Source: Agrococcus jejuensis
GTDB lineage: Bacteria; Actinomycetota; Actinomycetes; Actinomycetales; Microbacteriaceae
DNA: 64,000 nt
Direction: 5' to 3'
Assembly (NCBI RefSeq): GCF_007679035.1
Contig: NZ_VEFR01000003.1
Location: 248,001-312,000 of the forward strand
Shown here: positions 4,676 through 52,440 of the stretch, piece by piece
Position numbering within the stretch: position 1 is the stretch's first letter
Layout: each line of letters starts with the position of its first letter
Program-made: the position numbers and the translations under genes
Notes under the pieces: model-generated
What the model saw: the letters and a program-made list of their open reading frames with translations, nothing else
Databases searched by the model: none
Told to the model about the DNA's origin: nothing

Positions 4676-5290
4676 ACGCGACGCGTTCCGCGCCGTCGGC
4701 GTCCGCGGCGCATCCCGGCGTTCCGGTGCCCGCCGTCCTCCACTGTCTCGCGGTGCGCCGTGCCGGGCTGCGAAGGCGTTGCGCGGTCCGCCGACACGCG
4801 ACGCGTTCCGCTTCCTCGCCGTCCACGCCGCATCCCGGCGTTCGGGTGCCCGCCGTCCTCCACCGTCGTGCGGTGCGCCGTGCTGGGCTGCGAGGGCGCC
4901 TCGCGGTCCGCCGACACGCGACGCGTTCCGCGCCGTCGGCGTCCGCGGCGCATCCCGGCGTTCCGGTGCCCGCCGTCCTCCACCGTCGTGCGGTGCGCCG
5001 TGCTGGGCTGCGAGGACGCCGTGCGGTCCGCCGACACGCGACGCGTTCCGCTTCCTCGCCGTCCACGCCGCATCCCGGCGTTCGGGTGCCCGCCGTCCTC
5101 CGCCGTACCGCGGTGCGCCGTGCCGGGCTGCGAGGGCGCCTCGCGGTCCGCCGACGCGCGACGCGTTCTGCGCCGTCGGCGTCCGCGGCGCATCTCGGCG
5201 TTCCGGTGCCCGCCGTCCTCCGCCGTACCGCGGTGCGCCGTGCTGGTCTGCGAGGGCGCCGTGCGGTCCGCCGACACGCGACGCGTGCAG
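4676..5290 (+). repeat. Tandem array of five 120-bp units with alternating A/B types
   Basis: Five head-to-tail copies of an exactly 120-bp unit start at about 4681, 4801, 4921, 5041 and 5161, with a sixth breaking off after ACGCGT at 5281. Each unit opens with ACGCGT. Copies 1, 3 and 5 have the opening CGCGCCGTCGGCGTCCGCGG, while copies 2 and 4 have CGCTTCCTCGCCGTCCACGC, so the array has a 240-bp higher-order period. The length is a multiple of three, so several frames stay open, one of them joined to the downstream GH13 frame. I see no spacer structure of the CRISPR kind. The function is unknown. Confidence 0.92.
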
Positions 5291-7427: not shown

Positions 7428-7469
7428 CGCGCCGGCGACCGCCCGGTCGATCGGCCGCCCTCTCCGTCG

Positions 7470-7690
7470 ATTGGCCACTTCCTGCGATCGATTGGCCACT
7501 TCTTGCGGTGATTGGCCACCTTCTGCGATCGATTGGCCACTTCTTGCGGTCATTGGCCACGATCTGCGGTGGCGCGCCGCTCATTGGTCCACAACTGGAC
7601 CAATCGATGCCCGCCCAGGCGTCACCGAGGATCGATTGGCCACGATCTGCGGTGGCGCGCCGCTCATTGGTCCACAAGTGGACCAATCGA
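7470..7690 (+). repeat. Phased ATTGGCCAC box array with two ATTGGTCCA/TGGACCAAT palindromes
   Basis: This convergent intergenic region holds ATTGGCCAC at 7470, 7491, 7511, 7532 and 7552, a spacing of 20-21 bp or two helical turns, with TTC(C/T)TGCG between boxes. A sixth box is at 7635. Two palindromes with arms ATTGGTCCA and TGGACCAAT around a 4-nt centre lie at 7583-7604 and 7666-7687. Segment 7552-7607 recurs almost perfectly at 7635-7690, 83 bp away. The same two motifs recur at 34116-34215 in the opposite orientation. They could be protein-binding sites, a dispersed repeat or an unusual terminator region. Confidence 0.85.
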
Positions 7691-12569: not shown

Positions 12570-13046
12570 ATGGATGCCGCAGACGCCGACCGACCGACCG
12601 CCGACGACGCGACGACCGACGGCGAGCGCGCAGCGCCGCCGCACTCCCACGATCACCTCGAGCTGCACGTCTCGCGATCCCGGGCCTTCGACGCCTACCT
12701 GCGCGACCTGGGCTCCTGGTGGCTGCACGGCCGCGCCCCCCGCTCCGACCTGCACGTCGAGCAGCATGCGGGCGGCTCGATCGTCGAGCACGCGTCGGGC
12801 GTCGACGAGCGTCCGTGGGGCGAGGTGCACGAGATCGAGCCGGGCCGCCGCGTGCGGCACTCGTATCGCTACGCCGGCGAGCGATCCGCGGTCGTGACGG
12901 CCGAGTTCCACGACGGCGACCACGGCGGCGCGACCATCGACCTGCACCACGAGCCGTGGGAGGGCAGCGACGAGGATCGCGCCGCCCTGCAGGGCGCATG
13001 GACCGACGCGCTGCGCCGCCTCGAGGCGATCGCCAGCGCCGTCTGA
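12570..13046 (+). CDS. SRPBCC-like (START superfamily) hypothetical protein
   Basis: This 158-residue protein begins with a disordered acidic stretch and then a domain LELHVSRSRAFDAYLRDLGSWW that looks like an AHSA1/SRPBCC fold, followed by strand-like segments VHEIEPGRRVRHSYRYAG and a final long helix. SRPBCC proteins form a deep hydrophobic ligand pocket; the ligand here cannot be predicted. GGAG lies four bases before the ATG. It may be the last gene of the murB transcript (86-nt gap). The assignment rests on pattern only. Confidence 0.65.
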   Translation: MDAADADRPTADDATTDGERAAPPHSHDHLELHVSRSRAFDAYLRDLGSWWLHGRAPRSDLHVEQHAGGSIVEHASGVDERPWGEVHEIEPGRRVRHSYRYAGERSAVVTAEFHDGDHGGATIDLHHEPWEGSDEDRAALQGAWTDALRRLEAIASAV

Positions 13047-13098
13047 GTCGAGGTCTTCGGCCCGATGCGACCTCACATCGGGCCGGAGACCTCGACTC
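13045..13098. terminator. Bidirectional hairpin between convergent genes
   Basis: A 23-bp inverted repeat with one T-G pair (arms 13045-13067 and 13076-13098, core AGGTCT-CGGCCCGATG) and an 8-nt loop lies exactly between the SRPBCC-like stop, which it overlaps, and the aminotransferase stop. It serves both strands as a terminator. Confidence 0.8.
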
Positions 13099-34115: not shown

Positions 34116-34215
34116 ATTGGTCCAGTTCTGGACCGATCGACCGGGCGACCCCTACAGGACGTGGCCAATCGGCGCGGGAAGTGGCCAATCGGCGCGGGAA
34201 GTGGCCAATCGGCGG
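34116..34215. repeat. Second ATTGGTCCA palindrome with three GTGGCCAAT boxes
   Basis: A palindrome ATTGGTCCAG-TT-CTGGACCGAT lies at 34116-34137, then GTGGCCAATCGGCGCGGGAA repeats at exact 20-bp spacing from 34161, 34181 and 34201. GTGGCCAAT is the complement of ATTGGCCAC, so this is the array at 7470-7690 in the opposite orientation. It lies between kynureninase and the photolyase-like gene. The function is unknown. Confidence 0.85.
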
Positions 34216-34308
34216 GGACCACTCGACGCGCCAGCGCAAGTCGATGCATGCGGCGTGCGGCGCTTGCGAGGATCGAGGCATGCGGATGCGTGGACGCGGA
34301 GACGACCG

Positions 34309-47443: not shown

Positions 47444-48814
47444 ATGCGCTTCGCAGAGACCATCCTCGAGACCATCGGGGACACGCCGCTCGTGCGGCTC
47501 AACCACGTCACCGACGGCATCGCCGCGACGGTGCTCGCGAAGGTCGAGTTCCTCAACCCGGGCGGATCGGTGAAGGACCGCATCGCGCAGTCGATGATCG
47601 ACGACGCCGAGCGCCGCGGCGTGCTGCAGCCTGGCGGCACCATCGTCGAGCCGACGAGCGGCAACACGGGCGTGGGGCTCGCGCTCGTGGCCCAGCAGCG
47701 CGGCTACCGCTGCATCTTCGTCTGCCCCGACAAGGTCTCCGAGGACAAGCGCGCGACGTTGCGCGCGTACGGCGCCGAGGTCGTCGTCACGCCGACGGCC
47801 GTCGCGCCCGACAGCCCCGAGTCGTACTACGGCGTCGCGAACCGCATCACCGCCGAGGTCGAGGGCGCGTTCCAGCCGAACCAGTTCTTCAACCCCGCGG
47901 CGCCCGCCGCCCACGAGGCGACGACCGGCCCCGAGATCTGGCGCGACACCGACGGCCGCGTCACGCACCTGGTCGCCGGCGTCGGCACGGGTGGCACCAT
48001 CACCGGCACGGCGCGCTTCCTCAAGGGCGCCTCGGACGGCGCCGTGCGCGTCGTCGGCGCCGACCCGCTCGGCTCCATCTACTCCGGCGGCACGGGCCGT
48101 CCGTACCTCGTCGAGGGCGTCGGCGAGGACATGATGCCCGGCAACTACGACCCGTCGGTCATCGACGAGGTCGTCGCGGTCGACGACGCGGCATCGTTCG
48201 CCATGACGCGGCGCCTCGCCCGCGAGGAGGGCCTGCTGGTGGGCGGCTCGAGCGGCATGGCCGTCGTCGTCGCGCTCGACGTCGCACGCGACCTGCCCGC
48301 CGACGCCGTCGTCGTCGTGATCCTGCCGGACTCCGGCCGCGGCTACCTGCAGAAGGTGTACTCGGACGCGTGGATGCGCGCGCACGGGTTCGCGGATCCC
48401 GCCGAGGGCACGACGGTGCGCGACGTGCTCACCGCCAAGGGCGGCGCCGCACCGGCGCTCGTGCACGCGCATCCCACCGACACCGTGCACGACGCGATCG
48501 AGATCATGCACGAGTTCGGCGTGAGCCAGCTGCCCGTGCTGCGCGCCGAGCCGCCCGTCGTGCTCGGCGAGGTCGCCGGCTCGGTCGACGAGCGGCAGCT
48601 GCTCGACGCCGTCTTCACCGGCGGCGCCCGCCTCGGCGACTCCGTGGGCGACCACATGGGCCCGCAGCTGCCGCGCATCGGCGCGGGGGAGTCGGCCGAC
48701 GACCTGCGCGACGCGCTCGCCGAGGCCGACGCGATCCTCGTGCTCGACGAGGCGCGCCCCATCGGCGTCGTCACGCGCGCCGACCTGCTGACGTACCTCG
48801 CGAAGGAGGCATGA
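47444..48814 (+). CDS. Cystathionine beta-synthase
   Basis: Cystathionine beta-synthase joins serine (or O-acetylserine) and homocysteine to cystathionine with PLP. The 456-residue protein has a fold-type II domain: NPGGSVKDRIA with the PLP lysine, EPTSGNTGVGLA, GVGTGGTITG and GGSSGMA. Two C-terminal CBS domains follow (about residues 335-456: HAHPTDTVHDAIEIM ... LVLDEARPIGVVTRADLL). No heme-binding N-terminal part is present. The next gene, a cystathionine gamma-synthase/lyase, overlaps by one base or four depending on its start. Confidence 0.9.
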   Translation: MRFAETILETIGDTPLVRLNHVTDGIAATVLAKVEFLNPGGSVKDRIAQSMIDDAERRGVLQPGGTIVEPTSGNTGVGLALVAQQRGYRCIFVCPDKVSEDKRATLRAYGAEVVVTPTAVAPDSPESYYGVANRITAEVEGAFQPNQFFNPAAPAAHEATTGPEIWRDTDGRVTHLVAGVGTGGTITGTARFLKGASDGAVRVVGADPLGSIYSGGTGRPYLVEGVGEDMMPGNYDPSVIDEVVAVDDAASFAMTRRLAREEGLLVGGSSGMAVVVALDVARDLPADAVVVVILPDSGRGYLQKVYSDAWMRAHGFADPAEGTTVRDVLTAKGGAAPALVHAHPTDTVHDAIEIMHEFGVSQLPVLRAEPPVVLGEVAGSVDERQLLDAVFTGGARLGDSVGDHMGPQLPRIGAGESADDLRDALAEADAILVLDEARPIGVVTRADLLTYLAKEA

Positions 48815-49953
48815 TGACCGGGTTCTCGACGAGGGCCATCCACGACGGCCAGCCGTTCGACCCCCGCACCGGTGCGGTCGTGCCACCGGTCTTCCTGTCG
48901 TCGACGTTCGTGCAGACGCACGTCGGCGGCTTCCGCGACGGCTACGAGTACGCCCGCGGCGGCAACCCGTCGCGCGACCAGCTGCAGGAGCAGCTCGCGT
49001 CGCTCGAGGGCGGCACCCACGCGTACGCGTTCGGCTCGGGGCTCGCGGCCGAGGACTCGCTGCTGCGCGCCGTGCTGCACCCCGGCGATCACATCCTCAT
49101 GGCGAACGACGTCTACGGCGGCACGCACCGCCTCGTCGACCAGGTGTGGGCGCCCTGGGGCATCGAGCTGTCGACCACGGACTTCGCCGACCTCGACGCC
49201 GTGCGCGCGGCGATCCGGCCGACGACGAAGGTGCTGTGGGTCGAGACGCCGTCGAACCCGCTCATGAAGATCACCGACCTCGCCGCGCTGGCCGAGCTCG
49301 GCCACGCCGCCGGGGCCCTCGTCGTCGCCGACAACACGTTCGCGTCGCCGTTCCTGCAGCAGCCGCTCGCGCTCGGCGCCGACGTCGTCGTGCACTCGAC
49401 CACGAAGTACGTCGGCGGGCACTCCGACCTCGTCGGCGGCGCCGTCGTGACGGCGGATGCCGAGCTGGCGGAGCGCGTCGGCTTCATGCAGTTCGCCGTC
49501 GGAGCGATCAACTCGCCGTTCGACGCGTGGCTCACGACCCGCTCGCTCAAGACGCTCGCGGTGCGCATGGAGCGCCACTCGTCGAACGCGCAGGCGGTCG
49601 CCGAGGCGCTCGTGGGGCACCCGGCGCTCGAGGCCGTGCACTACCCGGGCCTGCCGACGCATCCCGGCCACGAGATCGCGGCGCGGCAGATGTCGGGCTT
49701 CGGCGGCATGGTGTCGATCCAGGTGCGCGGAGGCGCGGACGAGGCGCTCGAGATCGTGCGCCGCACGGAGCTGTTCCAGCTCGCGGAGTCGCTCGGCGGC
49801 GTCGAGTCCCTCATCTGCTACCCGTCCGAGATGACGCACGCCTCGGTGAAGGGCACGGAGCTCGCGGTCCCGACGAACCTCCTCCGCCTGTCGGTCGGCA
49901 TCGAGGACGCCGACGACCTCATCGCCGACATCACCACCGCCCTCACCCCCTGA
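48814..49953 (+). CDS. Cystathionine gamma-synthase/gamma-lyase
   Basis: This 379-residue PLP enzyme of the Cys/Met-metabolism family has YEYARGGNPSRDQLQEQLAS, PSNPLMKI, and the Schiff-base lysine in HSTTKYVGGHSD. Paired with CBS, a gamma-lyase reaction (reverse transsulfuration, cystathionine to cysteine) is likely; synthase activity cannot be excluded by sequence. I chose the second of two consecutive ATGs because AAGGAGG lies four bases before it; the first ATG is only one base away. A 52-nt palindrome lies 20 nt after the stop. Confidence 0.88.
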   Translation: MTGFSTRAIHDGQPFDPRTGAVVPPVFLSSTFVQTHVGGFRDGYEYARGGNPSRDQLQEQLASLEGGTHAYAFGSGLAAEDSLLRAVLHPGDHILMANDVYGGTHRLVDQVWAPWGIELSTTDFADLDAVRAAIRPTTKVLWVETPSNPLMKITDLAALAELGHAAGALVVADNTFASPFLQQPLALGADVVVHSTTKYVGGHSDLVGGAVVTADAELAERVGFMQFAVGAINSPFDAWLTTRSLKTLAVRMERHSSNAQAVAEALVGHPALEAVHYPGLPTHPGHEIAARQMSGFGGMVSIQVRGGADEALEIVRRTELFQLAESLGGVESLICYPSEMTHASVKGTELAVPTNLLRLSVGIEDADDLIADITTALTP

Positions 49954-49973: not shown

Positions 49974-50025
49974 TTCTGAGGTTTTCGGCCCTTTCTGACA
50001 TCAGAAAGGGCCGAAAACCTCAGAA
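49974..50025. repeat. Palindrome P1 (25-bp arms, CA centre)
   Basis: A perfect 25-bp inverted repeat with a two-base CA centre starts TTCTGAGG and has the core TGAGGTTTTCGGCCCTTTCT. It lies between the cystathionine enzyme and the DUF559 gene, whose stop codon at 50020-50022 is inside its right arm. It matches P2 at 51040-51091 over 23 bp of each arm, and its centre CA is the complement of the TG in P2, so the two are in opposite orientation. It could also act as a terminator for both genes. Confidence 0.95.
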
Positions 50026-51003
50026 CTCTGGACGGATGGGGTCGGGCGGGCGTGTGGAGAGCAATGCGCGGACCGTGGCCGCAAGGGTCTCGGGGCGCTC
50101 GAGCGTGGTGCGCGTGACGCGCACGACGCGCCATCCGGCGGCGTGGAGTCGCTCGGTGCGCGCCACGTCGCGTTGCCACTGGGCGCGGACGGTGCGGTGG
50201 CCGTCGCCGTCGTACTCGATGGCGACGCGCTCGTCGCGGTAGAGCAGGTCGGCGCGGGCGATCAGCTCGCCCGCGTCCCAGATCTCGCCGTTGACCTCCG
50301 GCTCGGGCAGGCCGTGGTCGATGAGCGCGAGGCGAGTCGGCGTCTCCATGGGCGACTCGACGCCGAGTCGGACCAACGGTTGCGCGAGGCGCAGGCGTCC
50401 GATGCCGTGCATGCTCGCCCAATCGCCGACCGCCCGCTCCAGCTCCTCGCACGTCGCCATGGGGCGTGGTCCGCGGAGACCCGGGTAGTTGTCGGCAGCC
50501 GAGACGAGGGCATCGCCCACCACGACGAGCGACGGCACGTCGAGCACTCGCCCGAGCAGGAGCCAGGTCAGCACCGGGTCGGTCACCGGCACGCCGCCGA
50601 TCATCGTCGATCGGATGCGCTCGGCGGCGATCGCGCGACTCGTGACGCCCCGGGTCGAGGGGCGATAGGCGCCGTCGGGAACGAGCACCTGGATGCCTCC
50701 GGGAGCCCCGGCTGGCAGGGGCAAGCCGTGAAGCCTCGCAGCCGACGCCTCGCTCACGAGCTGGCCGGCGCGCAACCGCGGCGCGTACATCTGCGCGAGC
50801 TCCAGCGCATCCACCGGTGCCTCGAGTGCTCGCACGCCCCAGAATGGCCGCTGCAGCGAACGGTTTCGAAGTGCCTTCTGGGATACCCCGGCTCTCATGG
50901 CGGCACCCACGCCGACCGCCTTGGGCTCGTCGAGCTCCGGCATCTCGTCCTGTCGCATGGCTGCAGGATGCACGTCCAAGCCTCGCCGAGCGCACGAATC
51001 CAT
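50020..51003 (-). CDS. DUF559 (Vsr-like nuclease) protein with AbiEi-like N-terminal region
   Basis: This protein has about 307-327 residues. The N-terminal half resembles the AbiEi-antitoxin-type winged helix found with DUF559 (GVSQKALRNRSLQRPFWGVR, then SEASAARLHGLPLPA, PVTDPVLTWLLLGRVL). The C-terminal DUF559 domain is a PD-(D/E)xK nuclease related to Vsr: METPTRLALIDHGLPEPEVN, IARADLLYRDERVAIEYDGD, then RDVARTERLHAAGWRVVRVT. The start is uncertain (ATG at 51003, 50958 or 50943; none has a strong site). Codons such as CTT, CGA and CGT in the first part differ from the neighbours. It is bracketed by palindromes P1 and P2. Confidence 0.85.
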   Translation of the reverse strand: MDSCARRGLDVHPAAMRQDEMPELDEPKAVGVGAAMRAGVSQKALRNRSLQRPFWGVRALEAPVDALELAQMYAPRLRAGQLVSEASAARLHGLPLPAGAPGGIQVLVPDGAYRPSTRGVTSRAIAAERIRSTMIGGVPVTDPVLTWLLLGRVLDVPSLVVVGDALVSAADNYPGLRGPRPMATCEELERAVGDWASMHGIGRLRLAQPLVRLGVESPMETPTRLALIDHGLPEPEVNGEIWDAGELIARADLLYRDERVAIEYDGDGHRTVRAQWQRDVARTERLHAAGWRVVRVTRTTLERPETLAATVRALLSTRPPDPIRPEF

Positions 51004-51039
51004 CGCCCTGTGGATGGCGTCGACCTGTGGACGAGGACG

Positions 51040-51091
51040 TTGTGAGGTTTTCGGCCCTTTCTGATGTCAGAAAGGGCCGAAAACCTCACAA
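51040..51091. repeat. Palindrome P2 (25-bp arms, TG centre)
   Basis: A perfect 25-bp inverted repeat with a TG centre, starting TTGTGAGG and sharing the core TGAGGTTTTCGGCCCTTTCT with P1. It lies in the 90-nt gap between the start of the DUF559 gene and the stop of the upstream MFS gene, which begins 3 nt away. The sequence difference from P1 is confined to one outer base pair and the central two bases. Confidence 0.95.
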
Positions 51092-51093
51092 AG

Positions 51094-52440
51094 TCAGGCG
51101 AGGGGCTTGCCGCGCTGCTCGGGGAGGAGAGCGAAGGCGGCGATCGCCGCGACCGCGAACGCCGTCGCGAAGACCGCGAACAGCAGGGGCGTGCCGCCGA
51201 GGGCGACGAGGGGCGTGACGATGAGCGGGGCGATGATCGACGCGATGCGGCCGAAGCCCGCTGCGGCGCCCGTGCCCGTGCCGCGCACCGACGTCGGGTA
51301 GAGCTCGGGCCCGATCGCGTACAGCGCGCCCCACGCGCCGAGGTTGCAGAACGACAGCGCGCAGCCCGCGGCGATGATCTGCCAGTCGGCGGATGCGAGG
51401 CCGTACGCGACGGCAGCGACGGCAGAGCCCGCCAGGAAGATCGCAAGGGTCGACCGCCGTCCGATGACCTCGATGAGCCAGGCCGCGACGGCGTAGCCGG
51501 GCAGCTGCGCGAGGGTGATGATCAGCGTGAACTGGAACGAGCGCACGAGGTCGAACCCCTGCGCGACGAGCAGCGACGGGATCCAGATGAACGCGCCGTA
51601 GTACGACAGGTTGATGCAGAACCAGACGATCCACAGCCCGGCGGTGCGACGGCGCACGGCCGGGCTCCAGATCGACTGCGCCGAGTCCGCCTCGACGCCG
51701 GCGAGCACGCGCGGGGTCGCGGGCGGCAGCTCGGTGCGGGCGTCGCCGGCGGCGGCCTCGAACTCGCGCACGATGCGCTCCGCCTCGTCGTGGCGTCCCT
51801 TCGCCTCGAGGAACCGCACCGACTCGGGCAGTCCCATGCGCACGACGACGGCGTAGAGCGTGGGCACGATGCCCACCGCGAGGGCCCAGCGCCAGCCGTC
51901 GTCGGAGAGCGGGATGATGAACGCGCCGATCGCCGCCGCGGCGATCCAGCCGACGGCCCAGAACGACTCGAGCCACACGACGACGCGACCGCGGATGCGG
52001 CGGGGTGCGAACTCCGACACGAGCGTGGATGCGACGGGCAGCTCGGCGCCGAGCCCGAGCCCGATGACGAACCGCAGCGCGATGAGCATCGCGACGCCGG
52101 TCGAGAGCGCGGCCGCGCCCGTGGCGATGCCGTAGATCAGCAGCGTGATCGCGAACACCTGGCGGCGGCCGAGACGGTCGGCGACGAGCCCGCCGAGCGT
52201 CGCGCCGATCGCCATGCCGACGAAGCCGATCGATCCGATCCAGCCGAGCGTCGTGCCGTCGAGCTGCCACTGCACGGCGAGGGCTGCCATGACGAACGAG
52301 ATGAGGCCGACGTCCATGGCGTCGAGCGCCCAGCCGATGCCCGACCCGACGAGCAGGCGGCCGTGCTTGCTGGTGAACGGCAGCCGGTCGAGCCGCTCCG
52401 TGCGGGTGTACGCGCTCGTGGAAGCGGGTGCGTCGGGCAT
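51094..52440 (-). CDS. MFS transporter, sugar/metabolite:H+ symporter type
   Basis: This 448-residue major-facilitator protein has twelve predicted helices. Its first inter-helix loop has GLVADRLGRRQVFAITLLIY (the DRxGRR motif) and another loop has PRRIRGRVVVWLESFWAVGW. It looks like the sugar- and aromatic-acid symporter group (NiaP/PcaK-like). The central cytoplasmic loop is charged. The substrate is not evident; the divergent amidohydrolase gene may be functionally related. P2 lies immediately after its stop. Confidence 0.87.
   Translation of the reverse strand: MPDAPASTSAYTRTERLDRLPFTSKHGRLLVGSGIGWALDAMDVGLISFVMAALAVQWQLDGTTLGWIGSIGFVGMAIGATLGGLVADRLGRRQVFAITLLIYGIATGAAALSTGVAMLIALRFVIGLGLGAELPVASTLVSEFAPRRIRGRVVVWLESFWAVGWIAAAAIGAFIIPLSDDGWRWALAVGIVPTLYAVVVRMGLPESVRFLEAKGRHDEAERIVREFEAAAGDARTELPPATPRVLAGVEADSAQSIWSPAVRRRTAGLWIVWFCINLSYYGAFIWIPSLLVAQGFDLVRSFQFTLIITLAQLPGYAVAAWLIEVIGRRSTLAIFLAGSAVAAVAYGLASADWQIIAAGCALSFCNLGAWGALYAIGPELYPTSVRGTGTGAAAGFGRIASIIAPLIVTPLVALGGTPLLFAVFATAFAVAAIAAFALLPEQRGKPLA

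Follow-up and report, generated by a model that had tools for sequence, protein, structure and literature searches.

The window, that is, the whole stretch of 64,000 nucleotides that we analysed from Agrococcus jejuensis (genome G000; other G numbers denote relatives of the genus Agrococcus), holds a gene for a predicted nuclease that lies between two long and nearly identical palindromes, P1 and P2. Positions of the features under discussion are as follows.

48811..49953, + strand: left neighbour, a cystathionine gamma-synthase/metB-like gene, named by reading its translation
49974..50025, no strand: P1, a 52-nt palindrome with 25-bp arms and centre CA, containing the stop codon of the nuclease gene
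50020..51003, - strand: nuclease gene, 327 aa, with an N-terminal AbiEi-like part and a C-terminal DUF559/MTES_1575 (EDxHD/Vsr-type) part
50044..50361, - strand: segment for residues 215-320, aligned with the I-Bth0305I catalytic domain and with Vsr, with invariant E220, D252, H269 and D279
50368..50955, - strand: segment for residues 17-212, aligned with the AbiEi antitoxin 6y8q (Z 9.7)
51040..51091, no strand: P2, a 52-nt palindrome with 25-bp arms and centre TG; the MFS gene ends 2 bp away
51094..52440, - strand: right neighbour, an MFS transporter gene, named by reading its translation
13046..13097, no strand: third copy of the palindrome family, solitary, between convergent genes
7466..7570, no strand: array of units of about 20 bp, like those on either side of the paralogous nuclease gene G000:C11:394527-395393
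34157..34218, no strand: second array of 20-bp units, on the strand opposite to the first and like it by eye

The sequence confirmed what the first-pass annotation had described, namely two inverted repeats, each with perfect 25-bp arms around a CA or TG centre, that enclose a single gene, whose TGA stop is within P1. The arms had been said to differ at the outermost base pair, but the actual difference is the third base pair, and 50 of 52 bases are the same in the better orientation. This likeness stands out in the window: among 310 sliding comparisons P1/P2 scores 49.5 and all others score at most 20. Each strand of either palindrome, together with a short flank, folds into a hairpin of -48 to -53 kcal/mol. 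The codon usage of the nuclease gene, reported as unlike that of its neighbours, indeed departs from theirs (GC3 of 0.86 versus 0.96-0.98 in seven neighbours).

P1 and P2 as a private pair are ruled out by the distribution of their relatives. A covariance model of the family, built from 21 aligned copies, matched 33 places in G000 (66 strand matches, E up to 0.1), and P1 has the top score in the whole genome. GANNTC is the centre of all aligned copies, nearly all of which also have GAGG(3)TCGGCC ... GGCCGA(3)CCTC at constant spacing, and the inner stem covaries on both arms, 14 of 24 pairs showing compensatory double changes. The copy at 13046-13097 coincides with a hairpin at 13045 that had been listed among unrelated ones of the window; by eye, the hairpins at 676, 55067, 59571 and 59751 do not resemble one another. 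Moreover, palindromes occur as doublets 60-62 nt apart, two in G000 (C44 64083/64145 and 253241/253301) and three in G021.

The genomic context of 25 places in G000 was determined with a simple home-made gene caller and is therefore rough. None of the 25 lies inside a gene; 23 of these intergenic places are downstream of an adjacent gene, and two lie between divergent genes. Nearly all of the downstream places (22 of 23) overlap the stop codon or are located within 21 bp of it, the remaining one being at 74 bp, and 11 of the 25 places are between convergent genes. At 7 of the 25, whether solitary or flanking, the stop codon overlaps the element by the same six bases.

In the structure model of the nuclease (mean pLDDT 90.8), residues 217-319 align with the catalytic domain of I-Bth0305I (3r3p_B; Z 11.5, rmsd 2.6, 94 aligned), and residues 215-320 with Vsr (1cw0; Z 9.9). 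Residues 17-212 align with AbiEi (6y8q_A) at Z 9.7 but with an rmsd of 6.5 over 175 aligned residues, and the best Foldseek hit is the AbiEi relative Rv2827c (E 1.7e-4), for which the structural-alignment Z is only 6.9, a level that is common according to the tool. E220, D252, H269 and D279 are invariant in 28 of 28 members and probably represent the letters of the EDxHD motif. Pfam assigns MTES_1575 to all 28 members, DUF559 to 23 and AbiEi_1 to 3, and finds no transposase domain in the single gene of the unit. The model predicts a fusion of an AbiEi-type DNA-binding part with a nuclease of the EDxHD/Vsr kind. Two other readings of the gene were rejected. As to a defence system, PADLOC gave no match for the window protein, and among the 28 members 8 match mREase_II (best 7e-6) and a few match AbiEi models. 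As to carriage by plasmids or phages, tblastn of the window protein returned three plasmid records and one phage record with 48-57% query cover and 33-37% identity, matches so weak that no close relative is carried there.

The AbiEi-type part may instead suggest that the flanking palindromes are operators, through which the protein represses its own gene, with the dispersed copies as regulated sites or decoys and no mobility driven by the protein. In PMC7319586, the promoters of AbiEi and Rv2827c carry inverted repeats to which these proteins bind, and both the AbiEi fold match and the position of P2, 36 bp upstream of the nuclease start codon, would suit this role. However, a matching copy is also present at the stop codon, the dispersed copies lie at gene ends, divergent genes flanking just 2 of 25, units are either present or missing as a whole (see below), and the nuclease residues are conserved. 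We hold the operator explanation to be improbable.

Bracketing by matching repeats extends well beyond the window locus. In a census of the genus, 500 bp on the left were compared with 500 bp on the right of 65 of 68 matched nuclease genes, the other three being too close to a contig end. Paired flanking repeats reached a score of at least 20 in 51 of the 65 genes and at least 25 in 43, and were missing at threshold for 14. Control genes of 600-1800 bp from five genomes reached these scores in 2 and 1 of 140 cases, respectively (51/65 versus 2/140, Fisher p about 1e-32), and one of the two scoring control genes itself sits between two P1-family copies. When left and right flanks were paired across different genomes, 70 of 975 pairs scored at least 20, a number that includes genes of the same subfamily with a common repeat. 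A wider sample comprised 80 loci of named genomes, including Agrococcus, Microbacterium, Cryobacterium, Frigoribacterium, Isoptericola and Arthrobacter, of which three were excluded for short flanks; at a score of at least 20, paired repeats were found at 47 of 77 loci (30 lacking them at this threshold), whereas distal pairs reached it in 1 of 150 cases and cross pairs in 14 of 924. The two samples overlap, some loci being the same genes.

Palindromes of roughly 50-80 nt make up many of the left-right pairs, and a few pairs barely over the threshold are non-palindromic by eye (e.g. at locus L298). In one nuclease subfamily, inverted arrays of a 20-bp unit serve as brackets, for example with 14.4 and 14.9 copies in G011. 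Some subfamilies have 20-bp tandem arrays and no palindromes, so that a single recognition mode may not suit all. The unit of the array-bracketed subfamily (loci L304, L320 and others of the genus) is CTGAGTGGCGCCTCCCGCAC, and it replaces the single palindrome.

These comparisons bear on another explanation of the palindromes, in which they are ordinary bidirectional terminators at 3' ends of genes whose sequence is shared by chance, and the nuclease gene merely happens to lie between two of them. Such terminators would be expected where most copies in G000 are located, namely downstream of genes, within 21 bp of stop codons or overlapping them, and often between convergent genes, and the hairpins are very stable. 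On the other hand, no T-run follows a palindrome stem between 48000 and 53000 of the window (0 found), matched two-sided repeats distinguish nuclease genes from other genes, repeat sequences differ among subfamilies, and repeats mostly track the nuclease among genomes. The missing T-run and the control genes led us to reject termination as the sole explanation, and we regard chance-shared terminators as unlikely; the palindromes may act secondarily as terminators. The first-pass annotation had reasoned that mobility would lose its support if the core were found at the ends of many unrelated genes with no DUF559 association. Cores do lie at such ends, but the DUF559 association holds.

Among relatives, the palindrome family follows the closest counterparts of the nuclease. 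The family search covered 24 Agrococcus genomes with 150 first-look candidates scored per genome, so that weak or diverged copies can escape it. The family is present in three of the 24, with 60 strand matches in G000, 84 in G021 and 49 in G023, and the other 21 gave no match at E up to 1e-4. Among 36 genomes from other genera of the family and order, four gave one or two weak matches to the model (E up to 0.01); these four are out of 60 genomes searched in total. The nuclease search covered 20 of the 24 Agrococcus genomes, the four less complete ones being omitted, and identities of the closest counterparts were 100% in G000, 86% in G023 and 60% in G021, the best elsewhere being at most 48%. 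Hence the same three genomes hold both the family and the closest nuclease counterparts, and in G021 and G023 the counterpart is bracketed by two family palindromes as in G000. Within a genome the two flanking copies are much alike (50/52 in G000, 49/52 in G021 and 47/52 in G023); between genomes, the copies of G021 agree with those of G000 and G023 at 36-38 of 52 positions, and those of G000 and G023 with each other at 46-49 of 52. The two flanking arms thus changed together in G021 versus the other two genomes, and less clearly so between G000 and G023.

Other nucleases have repeats of their own. Three other nuclease paralogues in G000 have three other, mutually different repeats, two of which are clearly dispersed in this genome. 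These repeats, of loci L047, L048 and L049, were searched as a joined query against G000, G021 and G023 only. The L049 repeat was found at no fewer than 21 places in G000 and at least 15 in G023, flanking copies counted; among the matches listed, the L048 repeat occupies many places in G000 and G021, and the L047 repeat is mostly in G021, where gene L312 has similar flanks. Both window arrays, at 7466-7570 and 34157-34218, are likely dispersed copies of the repeat of a paralogue.

Six repeats from other genomes were searched in nine genomes, with 215 matches. Among the matches listed, the repeat of G012 occurs only in G012 (13 places) and that of G004 only in G004 (9 places). The G008 repeat is in G008 (6) and G017 (2), and the G016 repeat in G016 and G014 (at least 15 places each), again among the matches listed; the nucleases of each of these two pairs are sisters in the tree. 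The listed matches of the G001 repeat are 12 in G001 and one cross match at a G004 place, and those of the G010 repeat are 7 in G010, 3 in G019, whose nuclease is a sister, and 3 weak ones in G001. With these weak G010-type places G001 breaks the rule, its nucleases being at most 41% like that of the window. Among the matches listed, the six repeat families occur mainly in genomes holding the cognate nuclease.

Likeness of repeats and likeness of proteins were correlated among the 43 genes scoring at least 25 (Mantel rho 0.17, a value reached in none of 2000 permutations). This holds for close pairs only; no deep correlation was detected in the 797 pairs with a protein score ratio below 0.55 (rho 0.0006). 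This flatness fits a fast change of specificity, and it carries no weight for recognition.

Presence and absence of units across related genomes, which are confounded by common descent, were compared at two loci. At the window locus the unit is present in G000, G021 and G023. Of the 17 genomes without it, ten have the metB-like gene next to the MFS gene, with match ends 30-314 bp apart; of the remaining seven, six have 3.5-25 kb between the two genes and one has no good metB-like match. The second locus is that of the sister nucleases in G010 and G019, which are nearest in the tree (branch support 99/98) and have related repeats. There, the matches to the flanking genes are 8, 41 and 17 bp apart in G000, G021 and G023, all three without the unit, and they end at or no further than 18 bp from the outer palindrome ends. 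The reading frame of the neighbour ends at the element-end TGA in G010 and G019 and at a native TGA in G000 and G021. No target-site duplication was seen by eye between filled and empty sites, whose sequences have diverged so that it may have been lost. Units appear to have been gained or lost as blocks at two different loci. With the unit at one locus in G000, G021 and G023, recent movement of the window copy is at most conjectural. A unit kept at its locus with diverged arms had been named in advance as an argument against mobility; the three genomes with close counterparts do keep it so, but the sister units are elsewhere.

At the empty metB-MFS sites of four of the ten genomes (G004, G020, G018 and G006; loci L277, L283, L281 and L282), another, solitary palindrome is seen by eye, and those at the junctions of G004 and G020 have common CACAACGCAAGCCCG-type arms.

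Solitary copies differ among genomes as well. Five places within one 18-kb stretch of G000 are partly common to G000, G021 and G023: one is in all three genomes with an inner stem differing in G023; G023 lacks another; a third is degenerate there and replaced by about 1.2 kb of other DNA in G021; and a doublet of G000 is also in G021, with a single diverged counterpart in G023. Turnover of the palindromes is thus real, and it looks slow.

A phosphatase-like gene of G021 (L265, G021:C1:2099916-2100766; named from its translation) is located between two P1-family copies, with one copy in G000 and none in G023, and palindromes may therefore bracket passenger genes too. The nuclease itself could be such a passenger or a defence gene; another transposase, e.g. 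TnpA-REP, would have spread the palindromes, and recombination between them would have moved the gene. The phosphatase-like gene fits this explanation. However, this same nuclease is found in many subfamilies with unlike repeats, and passengers are not expected to own repeats; we consider a passenger nuclease very unlikely.

The putative mobile unit formed by P1, nuclease gene and P2 has points in common with several known systems. REPs, the best-known dispersed bacterial palindromes, go with a single type of enzyme, TnpA-REP, which is a HuH protein. As in a REPtron (TnpA-REP/RAYT with REP, BIME or REPIN), the enzyme gene adjoins its cognate palindromes, many solitary copies are intergenic, and paired copies have a near-fixed spacing, here 60-62 nt. 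In contrast, the predicted fold is EDxHD/Vsr with AbiEi instead of a HuH (Y1) transposase, the palindromes are about 52 nt, and related units are at different loci. PMC8266576 gives a conserved GTAG foot as a feature of REPs; neither GTAG nor another conserved foot is present in the 21 aligned copies. With the HuH and GTAG features failing, the unit is not a REPtron despite the resemblance.

EDxHD homing endonucleases offer the second comparison. I-Bth0305I has the same catalytic fold with conserved E, D, H and D, and, according to PMC3943268, forms a dimer on a target nearly 60 bp long, so that a long target with dimer binding is a further likeness, as is a gene present or absent as a block with empty sites in relatives. 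Unlike in that system, no intron or intein is seen around the window gene, the gene has its own flanking palindromes and an AbiEi-type part, and homing is putative. The AbiEi antitoxins (AbiE, Rv2827c) resemble the N-terminal fold (6y8q, Z 9.7) and have inverted repeats of comparable size, 23-25 bp with a centre of 2-3 bp against 25-2-25 here; the AbiEi target in PMC7319586 consists of two 23-bp inverted repeats with 3 bp between them. They differ in that the protein here is fused to a nuclease and its repeats are on both sides and dispersed. Moreover, no AbiEii (DUF1814) toxin gene is beside the nuclease gene, the neighbours being metB-like and MFS genes by their translations. The Vsr mismatch endonuclease shares the nuclease fold (1cw0, Z 9.9) and differs in the metB-like and MFS neighbours, the extra AbiEi part and the bracketing repeats found here. 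Insertion sequences and MITEs are likewise units with inverted ends and short non-autonomous relatives, but here Pfam finds no transposase domain, each end is a complete palindrome and no target duplication was seen by eye between the diverged sites. A literature search, in which most subscription journals were outside coverage, found no paper on an association of DUF559 nucleases with palindromes.

The unit is best read as resembling either REP/RAYT systems or homing elements, though with another enzyme. An endonuclease gene whose product recognises or spreads the palindrome, in analogy with RAYT and REP, had been proposed as a possibility from the window alone, and comparative sequence data support it: bracketing in 51/65 and 47/77 loci, repeats mainly in genomes with the nuclease, and presence or absence of blocks at two loci. 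We infer binding, cutting and movement by the nuclease, and consider it probable that P1, nuclease gene and P2 are a mobile unit whose own palindrome is bound by a dimer and cut or nicked, with repair from other copies spreading it. The AbiEi-type, inverted-repeat-binding part would allow a protein dimer to recognise its own palindrome, and the EDxHD/Vsr-type part would cut or nick it. Repair of the break from another copy would keep copies alike and would spread solitary palindromes to gene ends, and at times it may bring the gene with both its palindromes to a new place in the manner of homing. Landing at gene ends would be tolerated because the element-end TGA can serve as the stop codon of the neighbour, as in the sister unit (G010, G019) and in 7 of the 25 places of G000.

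We lean slightly towards a broader reading, in which the AbiEi-EDxHD (DUF559) proteins of Actinobacteria form a large class of mobile elements that has so far gone undescribed. They would be free-standing nucleases of a homing type, each with a private long palindrome or 20-bp array, homing from copy to copy, with solitary palindromes as non-autonomous offspring and a stop codon supplied to the neighbour. A DUF559/MTES_1575 gene with weak AbiEi matches shows a REP-like link to palindromes in Agrococcus, Cryobacterium, Frigoribacterium, Isoptericola and Arthrobacter. Such elements could account for one class of repeated actinobacterial palindromes and could assign a function to DUF559/MTES_1575 genes. 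Dozens of nucleases beside their own repeats give a candidate table of enzymes and targets, which makes evolution of recognition directly testable, and they are a possible source of long-site nucleases.

Two further repeats were observed along the way. A 12-base piece of a dispersed repeat of about 160 bp (locus L262 of G000:C44, 16032-16191 and 5130-5292) is absent from the window; this repeat holds inverted GGTCTCGTGACG/GTCACGAGACC parts, is by eye unlike P1/P2, and has dozens of matches in G021 and G023. In addition, a 120-bp unit is repeated in tandem at 4676-5286 of the window, with 5.1 copies.
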